DNA of 64,000 nucleotides from positions 124,001 to 188,000 of the forward strand of contig NZ_JACYXM010000006.1 in NCBI RefSeq assembly GCF_014843005.1, written 5' to 3'. This DNA is from Rhodanobacter sp. DHG33 (GTDB lineage Bacteria > Pseudomonadota > Gammaproteobacteria > Xanthomonadales > Rhodanobacteraceae). Below, piece after piece: positions 28,948 to 38,388 of this stretch. Numbering within the stretch: position 1 is the first letter of the stretch; each line of letters starts with the position of its first letter. The notes beneath the pieces were generated by a model. The model was not told where the DNA came from, made no database searches, and saw nothing but the letters and a program-made list of their open reading frames with translations. A program made the position numbers and the translations under genes.

Positions 28948-30009
28948 TTGCGGTCTCTAGGGCCGGTTCAAGCAGCGCTCCGCATACTTCCTGCCGTTTC
29001 CGGCACCAAGGCCCTTCCCATCGCCACCCCACCGCAGGCCGACATCCCCGCCACGCCACCGCCCGGCCACGACCGGGACGGCACGCGTGCGCTCGACCTT
29101 GCGACCGTGGCGCGCCTGCGCCAGCTGCGCTGGCGCGAGCCGCCGCCCGGCCGGCGCCTGGCGTGGCTGGTGCTGCTCGTCGTGGCGCTGCTGCACCTCG
29201 TGTTCGCGGTGATGACCTGGTACGCGATGCATCCGCAGGAACCCGTGCCCGCCGAGCAATCCACGACGAGCGCCAGCGACGTGCTCGAGGTGCGCTTCAT
29301 TTCCGCCGCCCATGCGCCGGCCGCTAAGCCCGTGCCGCCCCTGGCCCTGCCGCCACCGCCGGCTCGCGCGCCCGTCCGCGCGACGGCGAAGCGCGTCGCC
29401 GAACCCGCGTCGAAGAATGCATCGAGCGAACCGCCGCCCGCGCCGGCACCGGCGGCCAGCGTGGCGCCGCCACGCCTGTTCGACAGCAGCGGTGCGGCCA
29501 TCCTGCCGGCGGCCGCCAGCAGCGCAGCGGCGCCCGAGTACGTGCAGCACATGCCGCAGGGCGACACGCGGATCATGCAGCACACCAGTCCGGTGAAGTA
29601 CAAACCGACTCCCTTCGACAAGGACTGGGGCCACGGCAGCAACGCGGTCGACGATGCGTTGCAGAAGGCGGTGGACAAGACCACCGTGAAGCACACCTTC
29701 GACCTGGGACATGGCATCCACATCCATTGCGGTGTTTCGCTGGTGGGTCTGGGCGGGGGCTGCGGCGGCGATCCGCCTTCGCCGCCGCCGCCCAAGGATG
29801 GCGACGTGCGCATGAACATGGCGCCCGCCAAGCCGCTGGCGCCCAACCCGCATGCCCCGCCGCCGCCGCCTTTGTCCAAGTGCATCGCGCTGTACCGTGC
29901 CGGCCAGCCGCTCGCCGAGGGCTGCCCCAGCGACACGCCGCTTCGCGCCGTGGACGAGGAGGTGCGCGAGCAGCGCGAAAAGCAGGCCAAACAGGCGGCG
30001 GGTCACTGA
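28948..30009 (+). CDS. TonB-like anchored protein with novel C-terminal module (A)
   Basis: About 353 residues. A Pro-rich cytoplasmic tail is followed by a single TM helix (about 72-92), a 100-residue Pro/Ala-rich periplasmic linker and a C-terminal module (about 196-328). The short LEVRFISAAHAP after the TM recalls TonB, but no TonB C-terminal domain is seen. The module has KTTVKHTFDLGHGIHIHCGV and ends near KCIALYR plus EGCPS. It shares this module with the next gene. The TTG at 28948 has no clear ribosome-binding site, so the start is uncertain. The function is unknown. Confidence 0.6.
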   Translation: MRSLGPVQAALRILPAVSGTKALPIATPPQADIPATPPPGHDRDGTRALDLATVARLRQLRWREPPPGRRLAWLVLLVVALLHLVFAVMTWYAMHPQEPVPAEQSTTSASDVLEVRFISAAHAPAAKPVPPLALPPPPARAPVRATAKRVAEPASKNASSEPPPAPAPAASVAPPRLFDSSGAAILPAAASSAAAPEYVQHMPQGDTRIMQHTSPVKYKPTPFDKDWGHGSNAVDDALQKAVDKTTVKHTFDLGHGIHIHCGVSLVGLGGGCGGDPPSPPPPKDGDVRMNMAPAKPLAPNPHAPPPPPLSKCIALYRAGQPLAEGCPSDTPLRAVDEEVREQREKQAKQAAGH

Positions 30010-30039: not shown

Positions 30040-32010
30040 ATGCCGCTGCCTACGGATCCGAACACGCCTCGACCATCTGCCCAGCGGCCGGCTCAGGTAC
30101 TGCTGAATTCGCCGCTCGCCGCTTCCTCGCGCATGCTCGGCCTGCGCGCGTCGCGGCGGCCTAGGCCGCGCCTGGCGTGGCGGCGTGTGACGGCGCTCGT
30201 CTGCAGCCTGCTGATCCACATCCTGTTCCTGCTCGGCTTCACTTTCGTGGAGGATTGGGAGGTGCCGCCGGGTCCGGACACGCCGGCGAAGCTGCAGGCA
30301 CACTTCATCGAATTGCCCGACCTCGCGCCCCCGCCGCCGCCGAAAGGCGAGCCGCCGCGCCAGGTCGGCCCGGTGCACCAGGGCCATGCTGCGCCCCGTG
30401 CCGGCGCGCAGCACACCGCGAACGCCGCCGCGCATCGCGCGCCGCACGCACCGCATGCACCTGCAGTCGCCGCGAAAGCCGTGGCTGTTGCGCCGGCGAA
30501 AGTGGCGGCGGCGCCGATACCGCCGCCCAGCGTGCCGCGGCCGGCGCCCACGCCGAAGTTGCAGCCGGTGCCGGTGGCGAACCAGCCGCCGCCGGTGAAC
30601 CTGTCCAAGCCCACCTTGCAGCCGCCGGTGCCGCCCCGGTTCCAGCCACAGCCCGTGCGTCCGCCGCAGGTCGAAGGCAACCAGCCGATGCTGCCGCCGC
30701 CTTCGCTGGCACTCCCGGCCGTGCCGCCGCAATCGCAACCCGCGGTCACACCACCCACCATGGCGCTGGATCGCGTGGCGCCGGATTCGCAGGCACCCGC
30801 CATCGCGCAACCGGCGCATGTAGACCTGCCTGCCGCGCCGCCCGCTCCCGACTTGCAGGCCGTGCCGCTGCCGGCCCAGGTCGCGCCGCAGGTGAGCTTG
30901 CAGACCTCGCTGGACGCACCCGCGCCGGATGCGCCCAGTCATCTGTCCAAGGTGCAGGCTCCCGCGCCCATCGAAGCTCAGGAGCAGCCGCTCGCCGCGA
31001 TCCCGCAATCGGCATCCGCGACACCCAGCATCGCGCCGTCGCCGAAGGCCACCGTCGAGATCACCAGCGACCAGTCGGCGACCACGATCGGCAAGCTCGC
31101 GCCGGTGGCCTTGCCGCCGGGAGAAAGCACGCCGGCGTCGAGCCAGGCATCGGCGACGGCATCGTCGACCGCCACGGACAACGCAGCGAGCGAAGAGGCC
31201 ACGGGGAAAACAAGCGAAAGCGCGGCATCGGGCGTCAGCACCGCACCCAACGCCACGCCGGAGGGCAGCGACAACGCGCATCCCGGCGAACCGCAGGGCA
31301 CGACCAGCGCCAGCGACATGGCTGCCGTGCACGGCAACGGTCCGACCACATCGCATGGCCTGGGCCACGCCACTTCGGGCAATCCCGGCAAGGGGCAGGG
31401 CGCTTTGCCGGGCACGCAGCCCGGTGCCGGCATCGCTGGCGCTGGGGCGGCATCGGCCAGCCAGGCAACGCCGAACAAGGTGCCCGAGTTCATCCAGCTC
31501 AAGCCCTCGGGCGACACTGCGGTGATGCGCCACAACGTCAACAGCGTGAAGTACCAGGCCACGCGCTTCGACCCGTACTGGACGCCGCCGGGCGAAAGCA
31601 CGGTGGACACCGCGCTGCGCCACGCGGCGGAAAAGACCACGGTGCAGCACACCTTCCACCTGCCGCTGGGCATCCGCATCAAGTGCTCGGTGACGCCGCT
31701 GATTCCCGTGTCGCTGCTGGGTTGCGGCAACGCCGACCAGCCGCCGCCGGCGGTGGCGCAGAAATCCTACGACCGGCTCAATTTACCTAGCCTTCCCGGC
31801 GGCAGCGTGCCCAGCGTGTCGCCCGCGGCCTCGGCTACCGCGGCGGCGCCGGCGCACGTCGCGTTGAACAACGATGCGCAGTGCGCGGCCGCGCGCATTG
31901 CCGGTGGCCCGATGCCGCCAGGGTGCCCGCCGACCGAGCCGGTGGTGAAGGGGTACGTGCCCGCGGCTTCGGCGAGTTCATGGGTACCGGCCAGCGATCA
32001 GTTCCATTGA
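30040..32010 (+). CDS. TonB-like anchored protein with novel C-terminal module (B)
   Basis: 656-residue paralogue of the preceding protein, 30 bases downstream and probably cotranscribed. A basic N-terminus, one TM helix (about 50-69), then roughly 400 residues of Pro/Ala/Ser/Gln-rich linker and a C-terminal module (about 481-640). Shared with protein A are a VKY/FD/W stretch, KTTVQHTFHLPLGIRIKCSV, a GC ahead of a PPP segment, and a Cys near the end followed by PPGCPP. The linker could span the periplasm. No ExbB/ExbD genes are nearby. No recognised family and no function assigned. Confidence 0.68.
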   Translation: MPLPTDPNTPRPSAQRPAQVLLNSPLAASSRMLGLRASRRPRPRLAWRRVTALVCSLLIHILFLLGFTFVEDWEVPPGPDTPAKLQAHFIELPDLAPPPPPKGEPPRQVGPVHQGHAAPRAGAQHTANAAAHRAPHAPHAPAVAAKAVAVAPAKVAAAPIPPPSVPRPAPTPKLQPVPVANQPPPVNLSKPTLQPPVPPRFQPQPVRPPQVEGNQPMLPPPSLALPAVPPQSQPAVTPPTMALDRVAPDSQAPAIAQPAHVDLPAAPPAPDLQAVPLPAQVAPQVSLQTSLDAPAPDAPSHLSKVQAPAPIEAQEQPLAAIPQSASATPSIAPSPKATVEITSDQSATTIGKLAPVALPPGESTPASSQASATASSTATDNAASEEATGKTSESAASGVSTAPNATPEGSDNAHPGEPQGTTSASDMAAVHGNGPTTSHGLGHATSGNPGKGQGALPGTQPGAGIAGAGAASASQATPNKVPEFIQLKPSGDTAVMRHNVNSVKYQATRFDPYWTPPGESTVDTALRHAAEKTTVQHTFHLPLGIRIKCSVTPLIPVSLLGCGNADQPPPAVAQKSYDRLNLPSLPGGSVPSVSPAASATAAAPAHVALNNDAQCAAARIAGGPMPPGCPPTEPVVKGYVPAASASSWVPASDQFH

Positions 32011-32214: not shown

Positions 32215-34491
32215 TTACTGCAACCGCTGGAACTCCCGCAGCAGCGGCAAGCGCCGCACGCGCACCGCGCTCACGCGGAACACCGCATTGGCCAAGGCCG
32301 GCGCCGCCGTTGGCATGCCGAGGAAGCTGGCGCCTGCGGGCGGAAGGCCGTCGTTGGGGACGATGATGGTCTCCACGGCATTCGGCAGCTGGGCCATGCC
32401 GGCGATCGGATAACTCTTCCAGTCGCGCTGCTGCACCTTGCCGTCCTTCGTGGTGATGGCGAGGTTGAGTGCGATGGAGAGCGCATCCAGCGTGGCGCCG
32501 GCGACCTGGCCTTCGAGGCCGAGCGGGTTGATGACGCGGCCCACGTCCACCGCGCAGACGACGCGCACGATGCTGAGCTTGTCGTTCTGCAGCGAGGTCT
32601 CGACGGCATGCGCCACGTAGGCGCCGTCCATGCTCCAGCAGGCGATGCCGAGGCCGTTGACGCTGTGCAGCCAGTTCTTCCAGCCGATACGGTCGGCGAC
32701 CAGCTGCAGCACGTTGCGCAGGCGCGCAGTGTCCAGCGCGCCGCCGTCCTTCAGCGGAATGCTGCGCGGGTCGCCGAGCAGGCGCAGGCGCGTCTGCAGC
32801 GGATCTTCGCGCAGCTGGTGCGCGATTTCGTCGACGAAGCTTTCCGCCGCGAAGGCGTTGGCGAGGTGCGGCATGGCGCGATGCGGGCCGCGCGGCAGGG
32901 AGGATTCCTGCGCATACCAGTCGCTGCGGAAGTTGGGTACGAGACCGGCGGGCAGCTGGTCCACCGAAACTTCCGAATGCCACAGCCGGTCGGCAGGCAC
33001 GCCGCGGCCGGCGAGCGCGGAGGCGCTGGCGATGCGCTGGTTCCAGCCGACCACGTTGCGCTTGCGGTCCAGCACCGCACTGATCCGGTGCACACTGGCG
33101 GGGCGGTAGTAGTCGTGGGTGAAGTCTTCGCCGCGCGTCCACAGCAGGCGCACGGGCTTGTTCGCTTCCTTCGCCAGCAGCACGGCTTCGGCCACGTAGT
33201 CGTGGTCGAGGCGGCGTCCGTAACCGCCGCCCACGCGCGGCACGCGGATTTCGATCTTGTCGGGCGTGAGGCCGGTGAGCCGCTGCACCACGGCGCAGGC
33301 CTGCTGCGGCGCCTGGGTGGGCACGACGAGGCTGGCCCGGTCCTTTTCGATGTGCGCGAGGCAGTTCATCGGCTCGGCGCAGGCGTGCGCGAGCCAGGGC
33401 TGGTAATAGGTCGCGTCCACGCGCACGGCCGCATGCTTGGCGGTTTTTTCCACATCGCCGTCGTCGCGTACGCGGGTCGTGGGCGTGGCAGAGGATTTGT
33501 CGTCGAGCAGGTCAGCGGCCTGTTGTTCCAGGGCGGCGGTGCTTTCCGTGGCGCTGGCACCGGGCTTCCATTCCACCTTGAGCTGGTCGCGGCCTTGCAG
33601 CGCGGCCCAGGTGTTTTCGGCCAGCACGGCCACCGCGGGGGCGATCACGGTGAGGCCGGGCTGCATGGTGTGCTCGGGCCGGAGCGGTATCACCTTGACC
33701 ACGCCCTTCACGGCGAGCGCAGGTGCGGGATCGAGGCTGGCCAGCGCGCCGTCCGGCCAAGGGCAGTGCAGCAGCACGGCGACCAGCGCCTCGGCCTCGT
33801 TGTGGTCGACGGCGTATTTCGCGCGGCCGGTGACGATGGCATGCGCATCCACGTCGCCTACCGGCTTGCCGATGAGGGTGTACTGCTCCGGCGACTTCGG
33901 TGTGGGCGGCTGCTGCGGCAGGTCGATCTTGCTGGCGTCGGCCACCAGGCTGCCGTAGGTGACGCGGCGGCCGTCCGGCGCGATCACGGTGCCGGCTTCG
34001 CAGCGCAGGCGGTCGGCGGCGATGCCGAGCCGGCGCGCGGCCGCCTGCGTGAGCAGCCAGCGCGCCAGCGCGCCGGCCTGGCGCAGGTCGGCCCAGGCGG
34101 CGGGGATGGAGTCGCCGGTACCGCCGCGCTGGCGGCCGTAGCTCCAGTGCGTCTTGTTGTTGTCGCCGGCGTCGACGCCAAGGCCGAGATGCACCACGCT
34201 GACGCGGTTCCAGTCGGCGTCCAGTTCGTCGGCGACGATCATCGGCAGCGAGGTGGCGACGCCGGTGCCGGTGTCGGGATCGCGCGCGCCGATCAGCACA
34301 TTGCCGTCGGAATCGATGCGCACATAGGCGCCGAGCTCGTGGAAATCGTTGCCAAGCCATTCCGGCGGCAGCGGCGGTTCGGTCGCCTCGGCGAAGCGCA
34401 CGCCAACCACCAGCGCACCCGCGGTGCCGGCGAGGATCTGCAGGAAGCGCCGCCGCGAGAGGCGGATGCCATTCGTCGCAGGAGTGCTCAT
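32215..34491 (-). CDS. Molybdopterin subunit of an IorB-like hydroxylase, catalytic Glu absent
   Basis: 758-residue large subunit of the xanthine oxidase/isoquinoline 1-oxidoreductase beta family, with a twin-arginine signal (SRRRFLQIL at 11-19) for export of the folded complex. Family marks are the DPDTGTG region and GGGYGRRLDHDY. The C-terminal motif that carries the catalytic glutamate in relatives (GVGEPGTPP) reads ASFLGMPTA here: in a gapless alignment of PP-x-G-x-x-E-P-G-x-P the Glu is Phe. The ATG at 34491 overlaps the preceding stop as ATGA, so translation is coupled to the iron-sulfur subunit. Confidence 0.88.
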   Translation of the reverse strand: MSTPATNGIRLSRRRFLQILAGTAGALVVGVRFAEATEPPLPPEWLGNDFHELGAYVRIDSDGNVLIGARDPDTGTGVATSLPMIVADELDADWNRVSVVHLGLGVDAGDNNKTHWSYGRQRGGTGDSIPAAWADLRQAGALARWLLTQAAARRLGIAADRLRCEAGTVIAPDGRRVTYGSLVADASKIDLPQQPPTPKSPEQYTLIGKPVGDVDAHAIVTGRAKYAVDHNEAEALVAVLLHCPWPDGALASLDPAPALAVKGVVKVIPLRPEHTMQPGLTVIAPAVAVLAENTWAALQGRDQLKVEWKPGASATESTAALEQQAADLLDDKSSATPTTRVRDDGDVEKTAKHAAVRVDATYYQPWLAHACAEPMNCLAHIEKDRASLVVPTQAPQQACAVVQRLTGLTPDKIEIRVPRVGGGYGRRLDHDYVAEAVLLAKEANKPVRLLWTRGEDFTHDYYRPASVHRISAVLDRKRNVVGWNQRIASASALAGRGVPADRLWHSEVSVDQLPAGLVPNFRSDWYAQESSLPRGPHRAMPHLANAFAAESFVDEIAHQLREDPLQTRLRLLGDPRSIPLKDGGALDTARLRNVLQLVADRIGWKNWLHSVNGLGIACWSMDGAYVAHAVETSLQNDKLSIVRVVCAVDVGRVINPLGLEGQVAGATLDALSIALNLAITTKDGKVQQRDWKSYPIAGMAQLPNAVETIIVPNDGLPPAGASFLGMPTAAPALANAVFRVSAVRVRRLPLLREFQRLQ

Positions 34492-35024
34492 GCCTGACCT
34501 GCCTTGCCGGCGGCCGCACGCTTGATCGCGGCACGCACCCGCGTCTGGCTGCCGCAGCGGCAGCTGTTGGGCAACTGGTCGATATCGACGTCGCCGGGTT
34601 GCGGCTTGCGCTTGAGCAGGTCGAAGCTGGCCATCAGCCAGCCGGGGGTGCAGTAGCCGCAGCCGATCGCATCCTCGTCGATGAAGGCTTGCTGCAGCGG
34701 ATGCAGGCTGCCGTCTTCCGCGGTGAGGCCTTCCACCGTGGTGATGCTCTTGCCGGCGAGCTTGGCCATGGGCTGGGTGATCGCGGAAACGGGCTTGCCG
34801 TTCACCAGCACCAGATCGGCGCCGTTCTCGCCATGCGTGCCGCCGTATTTGGTGCCGGTGAGCCACAGTACGTCGCGCAGGTACCACAGCAGCGGCATCT
34901 GCGGATCGCCCGTGTGCACGAAGCGCTCGCCGTTGATCTCGACCGCGATGCCGCCGCGTGCCGGCTCGGACACGATGCCGTTGTCCGGAATGGGCGGCAC
35001 ATCGTGGGCTTGGGCTGGCGCCAT
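34488..35024 (-). CDS. 2Fe-2S subunit of the same hydroxylase, N-terminal cluster lost
   Basis: 178-residue small subunit of the IorA/CoxS type, which normally carries two [2Fe-2S] clusters passing electrons from molybdopterin. The C-terminal helical half keeps all four cysteines (IGCGYCTPGW and SCRCGSQTR). The N-terminal plant-ferredoxin half keeps its fold sequence (LLWYLRD, LTGTKYG) but every cluster cysteine is replaced: the family motif C-x4-C-x2-C and the later C read G, N, D and I (KYGGTHGENGADLVLVNG, then VSAI). The ATG at 35024 has GGAGGAGA upstream. It is the first gene of the pair. Confidence 0.86.
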   Translation of the reverse strand: MAPAQAHDVPPIPDNGIVSEPARGGIAVEINGERFVHTGDPQMPLLWYLRDVLWLTGTKYGGTHGENGADLVLVNGKPVSAITQPMAKLAGKSITTVEGLTAEDGSLHPLQQAFIDEDAIGCGYCTPGWLMASFDLLKRKPQPGDVDIDQLPNSCRCGSQTRVRAAIKRAAAGKAGQA

Positions 35025-36002: not shown

Positions 36003-37901
36003 TCAGCGTCCGCCGAGGAACAGGTTGAGGTTGGCCACGTTGAGCGTGCCGATGCCCGCGCCCGGCGTGTAGTTCGGCGCACCGTAGTAGAACCAGTTGT
36101 CGCCGGCGTTCACGCTGTTGAAAGCCGACCACTTGCCGTAGCCGAAGATGTTCTGCAGCAGATACACCTGCGGGTTCCAGAAGCCCACGCGATGCCCCGT
36201 GCTCTGCGTCAGCAGCGCGCTGATGCCGTTGAGCTGCGGCGCCACGAAGCTGGTGCCGCCTTCGGAGATCACGCCGCCGTCGGCGCTGGACACCACGACA
36301 TAGCCGGTTTCGGGATCGGCGTTGAGCGAGATGTCCGGCACGTTGCGGCCGTTGAAGTTGGCAGGCAGCTTCAGCAGGGTGGTGGGGCCGGCGCTGGGGT
36401 CGTTGTAGACCAGCGACTGCTTCTTCTGGCTGCGCTGGGTGCCCCGGGTGAACCACTGGTAGAACGGCTGCTGCCAGTACACGCTCACGCCGCCACCGCC
36501 GCCGCTGGAGAACAGCTCGGCGCGGGGAATTCCGAAGAACTCCAGGTAGTCCCAGCCCCAGACGCTTTCCTGATTGATCGACAGCGTGGCGCCGGTCGAG
36601 CTGGTGAACGTCACCGGCGTGGTGGTGCCGCCTGCGGCGGTGATGTACGGATCGGAGGCGGGCGAGTCCACGGTCAGCGGCGCGCTGAACTGCCCCGGGC
36701 CGGTGCCCGTGCCCAGGCCGCGCACGGTGTCGTAGGCGCCGGAGTCGCCGGTGGCGGCGAATACCGACTGCCCCTGCACCGCAGCTTCCAGCAGCAACTG
36801 GTGGAACGCGCGCAGGTCGCCCACGTCGGTGGTGTCGCTGACGCTGGCGCCGTTCACGTTCAGTGCGGCGAAGTTGTAGATCTCCGGCGAGCCCCAGCTG
36901 GTGGAGATGCTGTCGGCCTTGTTGTCGGACACCGCCTGCGCGAGGGCGTCGATGAAGCCGTTGCCGGCGTTGGGTGCGTCGTAGACGAGGATGTTGGCGT
37001 TGGGCGCAATGCCGCCGGCCTGTTCCACGTCCAGCGAGGTTTCGCCGCTGCCGCCGTCGATGGCGCCGCCGCCGTCCACGTGCACCTGGGTGATGCGGTT
37101 CGCCTTGGTGGTGAGGCCGATGGCGTCCCAGTAGGCCTGCGCGTCGGCCGGGTAGAAGTTGGACAGGGTAACGATGGCCACCGTCGCGCCCTTGCCGGTG
37201 ATGCCGTGCTGGTACAGCGGGTTGATGTTGTAGAAGTTGGCCACGTCGCCCACGGTGTAGTTGCCCGGCTGGCCGGTGGCCGTGGGGTTGCCGCCGCTGG
37301 TGCTCTGGCCGAGTGCCTTCAGCGTGAGCGCCTGCTGTGCCGCCGGCAGCTGCGGCGCGCGGATGCGATGCGACAGGAACTGCCGCTCATTGCTCAGGCC
37401 GCTGGCGAAGACCACGGTGTCGGCCAGCGCGCCAGGCATCTGCGGCGTCTTCGACGGGCGATGGAAATGCCGGCCGCTGCGCTTCGACACATAGTCGTGG
37501 ATGGGCGCCTGGAACAGCGTGCCGAACTGGGCCAGCGTGCCGCTGGTCTGGATCGCCACGTGGCTGTCCAGCACCTTGCCGCTGAGGCCGTGCTGCTGCA
37601 GATAAGCCAGTACGCGCGCGACGTCCGCATCGCTGGCGCCGTATTTGCTGGCGAAGTCGCTGGTGCTGAGGAATTGCTGGTAGTGCGCGCTGCCGGGGGT
37701 GACGGTCTGACGGATGTAGTCCTGCAATGCCGCTTCGTTGCGCAGTTTCAACATCAGCGTGACATGCACGGTCTGGCTCGAAGTGGCCATGCCCATGTCG
37801 GTGCTGGGCCGCTCGTCGGCGGCCAGCGCGGTGCTCCCGACGCCTGCGAGCAGCAGGGCGAGGCAACCGGCGAGGGATTTGCGTTGCAGCTTCACGAACA
37901 T
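36003..37901 (-). CDS. Secreted S53 (sedolisin/kumamolisin) protease
   Basis: 632-residue secreted serine-carboxyl protease. Signal peptide 1-28, activation pro-domain (about 42-200), then the catalytic domain. The catalytic set is complete: Glu287 and Asp291 in GETSLDVEQ, oxyanion Asp386 in ATGDSGAY, and Ser551 in GGTSFVAPQ. Sedolisins work best at acid pH. The start at 37901 has CCAGGAGGAAG; an upstream ATG would add 27 charged residues before the signal. The Ca2+ loop near the C-terminus is not obvious, but the protein ends soon after. Lone gene, divergent from fumarase. Confidence 0.93.
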   Translation of the reverse strand: MFVKLQRKSLAGCLALLLAGVGSTALAADERPSTDMGMATSSQTVHVTLMLKLRNEAALQDYIRQTVTPGSAHYQQFLSTSDFASKYGASDADVARVLAYLQQHGLSGKVLDSHVAIQTSGTLAQFGTLFQAPIHDYVSKRSGRHFHRPSKTPQMPGALADTVVFASGLSNERQFLSHRIRAPQLPAAQQALTLKALGQSTSGGNPTATGQPGNYTVGDVANFYNINPLYQHGITGKGATVAIVTLSNFYPADAQAYWDAIGLTTKANRITQVHVDGGGAIDGGSGETSLDVEQAGGIAPNANILVYDAPNAGNGFIDALAQAVSDNKADSISTSWGSPEIYNFAALNVNGASVSDTTDVGDLRAFHQLLLEAAVQGQSVFAATGDSGAYDTVRGLGTGTGPGQFSAPLTVDSPASDPYITAAGGTTTPVTFTSSTGATLSINQESVWGWDYLEFFGIPRAELFSSGGGGGVSVYWQQPFYQWFTRGTQRSQKKQSLVYNDPSAGPTTLLKLPANFNGRNVPDISLNADPETGYVVVSSADGGVISEGGTSFVAPQLNGISALLTQSTGHRVGFWNPQVYLLQNIFGYGKWSAFNSVNAGDNWFYYGAPNYTPGAGIGTLNVANLNLFLGGR

Positions 37902-38388
37902 TGCGCTTCCTCCTGGTGGCAAATAATCCGGGCGTGCACGGGCGACGGCGCGTCGTCGCGACGCCCTGTGGTCGATCCACATGGCATGACGTCGAACAAT
38001 GACTTGAGGAATTCCCCAGCGACGCCGTCTGTCACCCCCTGACGACCGGCGTTGCGCCGCCCATGGAGCCTACCGCGATGTTGGGTGCGGCGGGTAGTGC
38101 TTTGGATGTCCGGCGGCACCACGGGTTTTGAATAAGGTTATGCCCGGGCGCCGGCCTGTCGGCGTCTACGGGAGAACGCTGGCGTCCCAGGTTTGGAACG
38201 AGGAAATCGAAGGCCATCAAGGGCTTCGATTTACGCCCGAGGCGAACGGTTGAATTCGGGCGGCGGCTCTGCCGGAAGCCCTGCGATGGCCGTGCGGCTT
38301 GGGGCGCATGCGCGAGCTGCGGCACAATAGGCGACTGGCTTCGCCGGTTACGCCGCCGCAAGCCCCTTTCCCCATCGAAGCCATCGCC
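37902..38388. promoter_or_regulatory. Divergent intergenic region between protease and fumarase
   Basis: 487 bases with no credible gene. A weak sigma-70-like pair TTGGGG (38299-38304) and CACAAT (38323-38328), 18 bases apart, could drive fumarase, whose ATG is 60 bases further on. An imperfect hairpin (AATCGAAG and CTTCGATT, about 38209-38232) lies within. No operator was recognised for the protease side. Confidence 0.4.

Follow-up and report, generated by a model that had tools for sequence, protein, structure and literature searches.

The window, the whole 64,000-nucleotide stretch of Rhodanobacter sp. DHG33 analysed here, contains an overlapping gene pair whose products probably form an exported derivative of an IorAB-type molybdenum hydroxylase, free of the molybdenum cofactor (Moco), with one [2Fe–2S] site kept and the former cofactor pocket reused. 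The IorA-like small subunit (178 residues; 34488..35024) and the IorB-like large subunit (758 residues; 32215..34491) are both encoded on the minus strand, as are all features of the pair given below, and their genes share an ATGA overlap at 34488–34491. Homology to the xanthine oxidase (XO) family is supported by fold and domains (Pfam, alignments and predicted structures). Pfam finds both MoCoBD domains in the large subunit and, in the small subunit, the C-terminal [2Fe–2S] binding domain only (Fer2_2, residues 96–168); a search of both proteins against NCBIfam gave no model at or above cut-off. The pair has traits of the periplasmic IorAB-type subgroup, namely the small–large gene order and a twin-arginine translocation (Tat) motif at the large-subunit N terminus (LSRRRFLQ, 34438..34461). 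The large subunit matches one locus only in its own genome.

The pair departs from the family in its ligands. Where XO-family proteins have ligands for two [2Fe–2S] sites, the distal set is gone: G62, N67, D70 and I82 occupy the four plant-ferredoxin-type cysteine columns of the small-subunit alignment (loop residues 59–84; 34773..34850). The second, FeSI-type cluster site is intact, using C122 and C125 (residues 117–130; 34635..34676) and C155 and C157 (residues 153–165; 34530..34568). In the large subunit, the place of the catalytic Glu near the molybdenum is taken by F723, part of a GASF loop (residues 717–737; 32281..32343) in which S722 and F723 replace the Gly-Glu of the catalytic GxGE motif. 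F723 aligns to the Glu of GLGEPG in chain C of 8GY3, the Gluconobacter membrane-bound aldehyde dehydrogenase, and to residue 692 of PaoC (5G5G/5G5H), a Glu that we take to be the catalytic one. The original prediction, made from the letters of the sequence, had named the four lost cysteines, the kept C-terminal cluster and the Phe at the catalytic position, and each holds up. Two further losses come in addition: the glutamines preceding CGYC and within MGQG, which we take to be pterin contacts of the family, are G121 and T76 here. G121 aligns to the Gln before CGYC in 8GY3, and T76, in DPDTGTG (residues 71–77; 34261..34281), to the Gln of its MGQH. The pterin-site loop GGGYGRRL (residues 421–428; 33208..33231) is kept, with Tyr for Phe at Y424. 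The available text of PMC6487702 names Gln113 of hAOX1 as a pterin contact, and that of PMC3624778 gives the role of Glu1261.

AlphaFold models, run per chain with 36 aligned sequences each, have mean predicted local distance difference test (pLDDT) values of 88.3 and 85.9 and predict that both chains keep the XO-family fold. Among solved structures, 8GY3 is the best relative for the large subunit (template modelling (TM) score of 0.83 against 8gy3_C); the small-subunit model matches 5y6q_A with a TM score of 0.82. Beyond the first 47 residues of the large subunit, the sole segment with pLDDT below 50 is loop 422–425 (GGYG) of the pterin site, which may reflect a missing cofactor or the small alignment. 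That the fold holds without Moco is known from the structure of the G1269R variant of human aldehyde oxidase (6Q6Q), described in the available part of PMC6487702. A further match to the chain models, 1FFU, carries the PDB title of a carbon monoxide (CO) dehydrogenase lacking the Mo-pyranopterin moiety.

We surveyed 233 genomes of the window's bacterial family. Large-subunit matches occur in 228, their number per genome being a lower bound from the best four candidates scored, and one locus was read in each of 225 (unread: G128, G141, G146, G152, G198, G210, G217 and G221). Loss of the ferredoxin cysteines marks out a clade of 14 genus groups and 120 genomes, here called the crown. It keeps the pair in 119 of 120, the exception without a match (G198) being 89% complete; the small subunit is present in 15 of 15 genomes of the genus group. 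None of the 118 readable crown small subunits (one of the 119 loci has no readable copy) contains any of the four ferredoxin cysteines. All 118 have Asp in the third of these columns, Gly before CGYC, W129 and a complete set of FeSI-type cysteines. Of the large subunits, 116 are readable at the Glu column (three of 119 unread): 115 have Phe there, one has Leu and none has Glu. The MGQG Gln column reads Thr in 114 and Ser in three of 117. A Tat motif of the form RRxF[LIMVF] is present in all 117 members whose match begins close to the N terminus.

Among the best 80 loci of named genomes, the pair is found in at least 30 from Rhodanobacter, Dyella, Frateuria and two metagenome-assembled genomes with broader names, at 67–87% identity, and the next relatives stand at 49% or less. 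No clade member outside the family appeared in a sample of 398 genomes from the order, family members included (best small-subunit identity outside it, 54%), and no plasmid-borne relative was seen at 60% identity or above. The pair would have been ordinary had most relatives carried the same residues; outside the clade, all four ferredoxin cysteines are kept in 53 of 53 aligned relatives (L018–L020, L051–L100). An assembly artefact is rejected, the same residues recurring in 119 clade genomes. A relocated four-cysteine site is rejected as well: the clade-specific residues of the small subunit include no new Cys, and the large subunit gained a single one, C377 (118 of 118 in the clade, 28 of 28 rows of groups g17, g20 and g21, and 5 of 34 canonical rows).

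Two crown loci are irregular. In G014 (L253) a frame change near residues 155–164, perhaps genuine and perhaps a sequencing error, divides the large subunit. G002 has a second, partial match to the large-subunit C terminus just downstream of the pair (residues 646–757, 57% identity; L106:438–779), perhaps a partial duplication.

Of the Moco synthesis and XdhC-type maturation expected in the host of an XO-family enzyme, profile searches of the DHG33 genome (99.99% complete) find nothing: MoaA, MoeA, MoaE and XdhC are all absent. The genome also has no sulfite-oxidase-type enzyme, and its single match to the dimethyl sulfoxide (DMSO) reductase family is NuoG (TIGR01973). Because the genome has no known Moco pathway, the pair is in all likelihood something other than a molybdenum enzyme. 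The original prediction had not touched on the pathway and saw a molybdenum hydroxylase pair that may have different chemistry or a different electron route, or act as a binding protein. It was right that the old chemistry cannot run; a molybdenum enzyme is most likely wrong, and a binding protein may still be right.

Across the family, MoaA is present in 176 and MoeA in 177 of the 233 genomes, and 53, DHG33 among them, have neither. Both markers are absent from 39 of 119 crown genomes (33 of 107 at 90% completeness or more), including the single-contig genomes G013, G031, G094, G107, G110, G201 and G207, and both are present in 80. At 90% completeness or more, marker loss affects 0 of 26 genomes with canonical residues versus 42 of 163 others (Fisher p 0.0015, a value that ignores relatedness and is no proof). 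Two genomes with canonical residues and neither marker, G162 and G230, are below 90% complete, and both have XdhC.

Might these genomes make Moco by an unknown or replaced synthesis? New Moco components are one reading of 'orphan molybdoproteins' in the available text of PMC6147048. Against this, the markers agree with each other, MoaE following MoaA and MoeA in every genome examined for it (present in 0 of 23 negatives and in 13 of 13 positives), and other Moco enzymes are missing too. For the latter we compared 42 pathway-negative genomes, from the crown and elsewhere, with 38 positives; the 42 were drawn from 44 MoaA-negative genomes at least 90% complete, leaving out G020 and G026, which have MoeA. 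PF00384 has exactly one match in 42 of 42 negatives and two or more in 38 of 38 positives; judged by their like scores, the single matches in the other negatives are presumably NuoG. PF00174 scores above cut-off in 23 of 38 positives and in none of the 42 negatives, where G168 alone shows a sub-threshold match. Enzymes of the DMSO-reductase type, beyond the one NuoG-like match, and of the sulfite-oxidase type are therefore missing in 42 of 42 negatives, MOSC-type Moco enzymes not having been searched. We regard an unknown or replaced Moco synthesis as very improbable.

XdhC-family chaperones are usually required for the maturation of XO-family enzymes, according to the part of PMC2997495 available. 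The pair is the sole large-subunit match in 57 crown genomes; with the best 24 candidates per genome scored, none of these has XdhC, and 20 of them carry both pathway markers. Of the 62 crown genomes with further large-subunit matches, 57 have XdhC. The five exceptions are three genomes below 90% complete (G180, G192 and G193), G014 with its frame-split large subunit, and G002 with its partial second copy. From the distribution of XdhC and the pathway it follows that the pathway tracks other enzymes, not this pair.

The same data bear on the alternative closest to the original prediction, in which the pair is still a Moco protein of altered chemistry, which either works only in species with the pathway and lies unused in the others, or receives Moco by import. 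Both markers in 80 of 119 clade genomes, several kept pterin-site residues and new conserved Glu at 507 and 562 would suit such a protein. The absence of XdhC where the pair is the sole match speaks against it, and so does the pathway history, with at least 19 changes of pathway state inside the clade (the fewest possible on the gene tree) and the pair kept. Residues are the same and constraint alike with or without the pathway, the large-subunit ratio of non-synonymous to synonymous substitution rates (dN/dS) in group g23 having a median of 0.245 with it and 0.270 without. We know of no import of Moco by bacteria. A surviving Moco protein is, on balance, improbable.

The pair is under purifying selection in groups of Moco-negative genomes. 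Pairwise Nei–Gojobori estimates (0.05 < dS < 1.5; pairs not independent) give large-subunit dN/dS medians of 0.07–0.27 across five Moco-negative groups, among them g12 (0.151, none with the pathway), g9 (0.071, one pair), g1 (0.226) and g23; canonical groups have 0.193–0.253. Small-subunit medians are 0.10–0.33 in the same crown groups and 0.23–0.29 in canonical ones. Decay of the gene pair is scarcely conceivable on these values. The broken copy in G014 and some small-subunit pairs at 0.69–0.70 would fit it, but medians lie well below 1, retention is 119 of 120, and FeSI cysteines (118 of 118) and Tat motif (117 of 117) are complete; a decaying pseudogene is rejected by dN/dS, conservation and retention. 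The view already taken from the ATGA overlap, the Tat signal (SRRRFLQ) and the intact frames, that these are not decaying genes, is thereby confirmed.

Column entropy shows where the constraint falls. The FeSI cysteine stretches of the crown average 0.21 bits, and the former ferredoxin loop is relaxed (0.97 bits versus 0.58 in canonical relatives). Four former pocket loops are tight in the crown—GASF 0.27, DPDTGTG 0.39, GGGYGRR 0.13 and TQ 0.38 bits—spanning 0.13–0.39 versus 0.76 for large-subunit residues 45–750. In canonical relatives, the TQ loop is looser (1.37 bits) than their average of 1.06. Such tightness suggests a pocket in use, not an abandoned one.

We propose that a periplasmic IorAB-type ancestor lost its catalytic Glu, the two pterin-contact glutamines and the distal [2Fe–2S] ligands. 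The folded heterodimer would load one [2Fe–2S] cluster at the proximal four cysteines and be exported by Tat, and the remodelled pocket would bind a small ligand, a partner or another cofactor beside that single cluster. An exported, single-cluster protein for one-electron redox or redox-sensing binding seems the likeliest role, held with less confidence than the absence of Moco. More tentatively, the former molybdenum site may have been remade for new catalysis or sensing, with a ligand or cofactor other than a pterin sitting in the conserved GASF/DPDTGTG/GGGYGRR pocket next to the cluster; if true, it would do chemistry with no known example among XO-family proteins.

A possible, if doubtful, alternative is a purely structural pseudoenzyme, in which bulky side chains (F723, W129, Y424 and W619 are candidates) fill the pocket, the Fe–S cluster does no more than stabilize the fold, and the complex scaffolds, chaperones or inhibits some other exported protein. 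Several of the invariant, clade-specific replacements are indeed aromatic, although W619 is only putatively pocket-facing. Precedents exist in NuoG, whose cluster N7 serves stability and not electron transfer (PMC5123574, available part), and in the Moco-free XO-family variant that keeps its fold (PMC6487702, available part). However, conservation in four of five pocket loops exceeds that of the remaining subunit, which mere filler would hardly need, and no partner gene is seen among the window's flanking genes.

The order of the losses was read from a quick tree, built on 112 rows after the trait columns had been taken out, that has open forks, some long branches and an outgroup not on one side of any branch. 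The crown is one clade (Shimodaira–Hasegawa-like approximate likelihood-ratio test (SH-aLRT) 100), its sister is g17 with g21, and g20 lies outside these. In g17 (22 loci) and g21 (one locus) all four ferredoxin cysteines are still there, with Val at the Glu place and Glu at the MGQG Gln place. In g20 the cysteines are kept where readable (four of five), and the Glu place is Ile, Thr, Gly or, in one of five loci, Glu. On this topology the active site appears to have changed first, with cluster loss as a single later change, because g17 and g21 are already altered at the Glu and pterin-Gln places yet keep all four cysteines. The co-occurrence of the two losses, raised in the original prediction as a matter for a tree, thus holds in that both sit in the same proteins but fails as a simultaneous origin.

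The residues of group g18 indicate an independent loss of the Glu, which makes this lineage a second natural instance of what is seen in the crown. Six of its genomes (G140, G143, G145, G148, G149 and G150) have GAED for GAGE with all four ferredoxin cysteines kept, and have neither MoaA nor MoeA (four are at least 94% complete, two 76–77%); in four g18 genomes with canonical GAGE, MoeA is present in four and MoaA in three. Separately, loci of g4, g5 and g24 (L151–L155, L283, L290–L302) have non-canonical Glu motifs of their own, such as IDPAWA, ALAMHS and VDFATA, and two g4 loci have altered FeSI Cys columns; these variants may be independent decay, repurposing or misalignment.

Several observations weigh against a Moco-free protein with a reused pocket. 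Three other positions that we take to be equivalent to pterin-site positions, Q393, R538 and Q662, look kept; conserved new acidic and Cys residues stand elsewhere in the large subunit (E507, E562 and C377); and cofactor binding could still occur in the 80 clade genomes with both Moco markers. A Moco route of a wholly unknown kind would be beyond the reach of the hidden Markov model (HMM) test. In a pair test that takes phylogeny into account, Glu loss shows no significant link to Moco loss (median p 0.5, from six Glu changes). By entropy, the ferredoxin-like domain as a whole is not relaxed (0.80 bits in the crown, 0.83 in canonical relatives), the fifth pocket loop, 532–545, is poorly conserved in the clade (0.88 bits), and canonical GASF, DPDTGTG and GGGYGRR loops are also tighter than average, by less (0.56–0.66 versus 1.06). 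The flanking genes of the window offer no functional or partner clue, and cluster, export and ligand are all read from residues.

Neighbours of the pair in the window are genes for a fumarase, EF-G, a FUSC protein and a pro-kumamolisin protein. For 25 of the 30 named loci the flank that was fetched includes the fumarase gene, and the pair occupies a broadly conserved chromosomal place. Two proline-rich open frames on the plus strand (28948–30009 and 30040–32010) have no Pfam or NCBIfam match; of the 30 clade loci fetched, 16 have stretches resembling them next to the pair. The gene at 36003–37982 (minus strand), upstream of the pair, encodes a protein that carries a pro-kumamolisin activation domain; a relative was found in 16 of the 30 loci.

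In the open-access literature, among the matches listed, no paper describes a natural Moco-free XO-family lineage, and no open-access paper was found on isoquinoline 1-oxidoreductase in Rhodanobacter. In its available text, the PMC6147048 survey counts 292 + 13 = 305 bacteria that have homologues of Moco-dependent molybdoenzymes and no complete Moco pathway, and proposes new Moco components or molybdenum-independent forms, reporting no sequence feature for the latter. The pair is like these orphan molybdoproteins in being an XO-family homologue in a genome without Moco synthesis; where the available text of the survey gives no sequence features, the pair gives a signature and a relative order of losses. 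That signature for molybdenum-independent members comprises GASF, TGTG, a Gly before CGYC and the lost ferredoxin cysteines, and within the clade the pathway was lost or gained more than once while the pair stayed; together these make the question of molybdenum-independent forms testable on a single purified protein. More distant relatives are annotated 'xanthine dehydrogenase family protein molybdopterin-binding subunit'; such proteins may therefore be counted as molybdoenzymes.

With the IorA/IorB-type hydroxylases and the Gluconobacter aldehyde dehydrogenase 8GY3, the pair shares the predicted fold, the Tat motif on the large subunit and the proximal [2Fe–2S] cysteines; it differs in having no ferredoxin-type ligands, no catalytic Glu, neither of the two pterin-contact glutamines and a host without a known Moco pathway. 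The G1269R aldehyde oxidase (6Q6Q) and the CO dehydrogenase 1FFU likewise have the XO-family fold without Moco, and the Gly changed in G1269R adjoins the catalytic Glu, a place where the clade has Ser (PMC6487702, available part); these, however, are inactive forms of working enzymes, whereas the loss in the pair is fixed by evolution. A further parallel is NuoG of respiratory complex I. As far as the available text of PMC5123574 goes, it is the unique example in its enzyme family in which Moco is lost and the equivalent Fe/S cluster conserved; the pair, judged by its residues and genome content, likewise seems to combine a molybdoenzyme fold and lost Moco with a kept adjoining Fe–S site. NuoG belongs to another superfamily and is a subunit of a known machine, whereas the pair stands alone and has a Tat motif. 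Our best reading by analogy is that the pair is an XO-family counterpart of NuoG, similar in its workings without being a member of that family.

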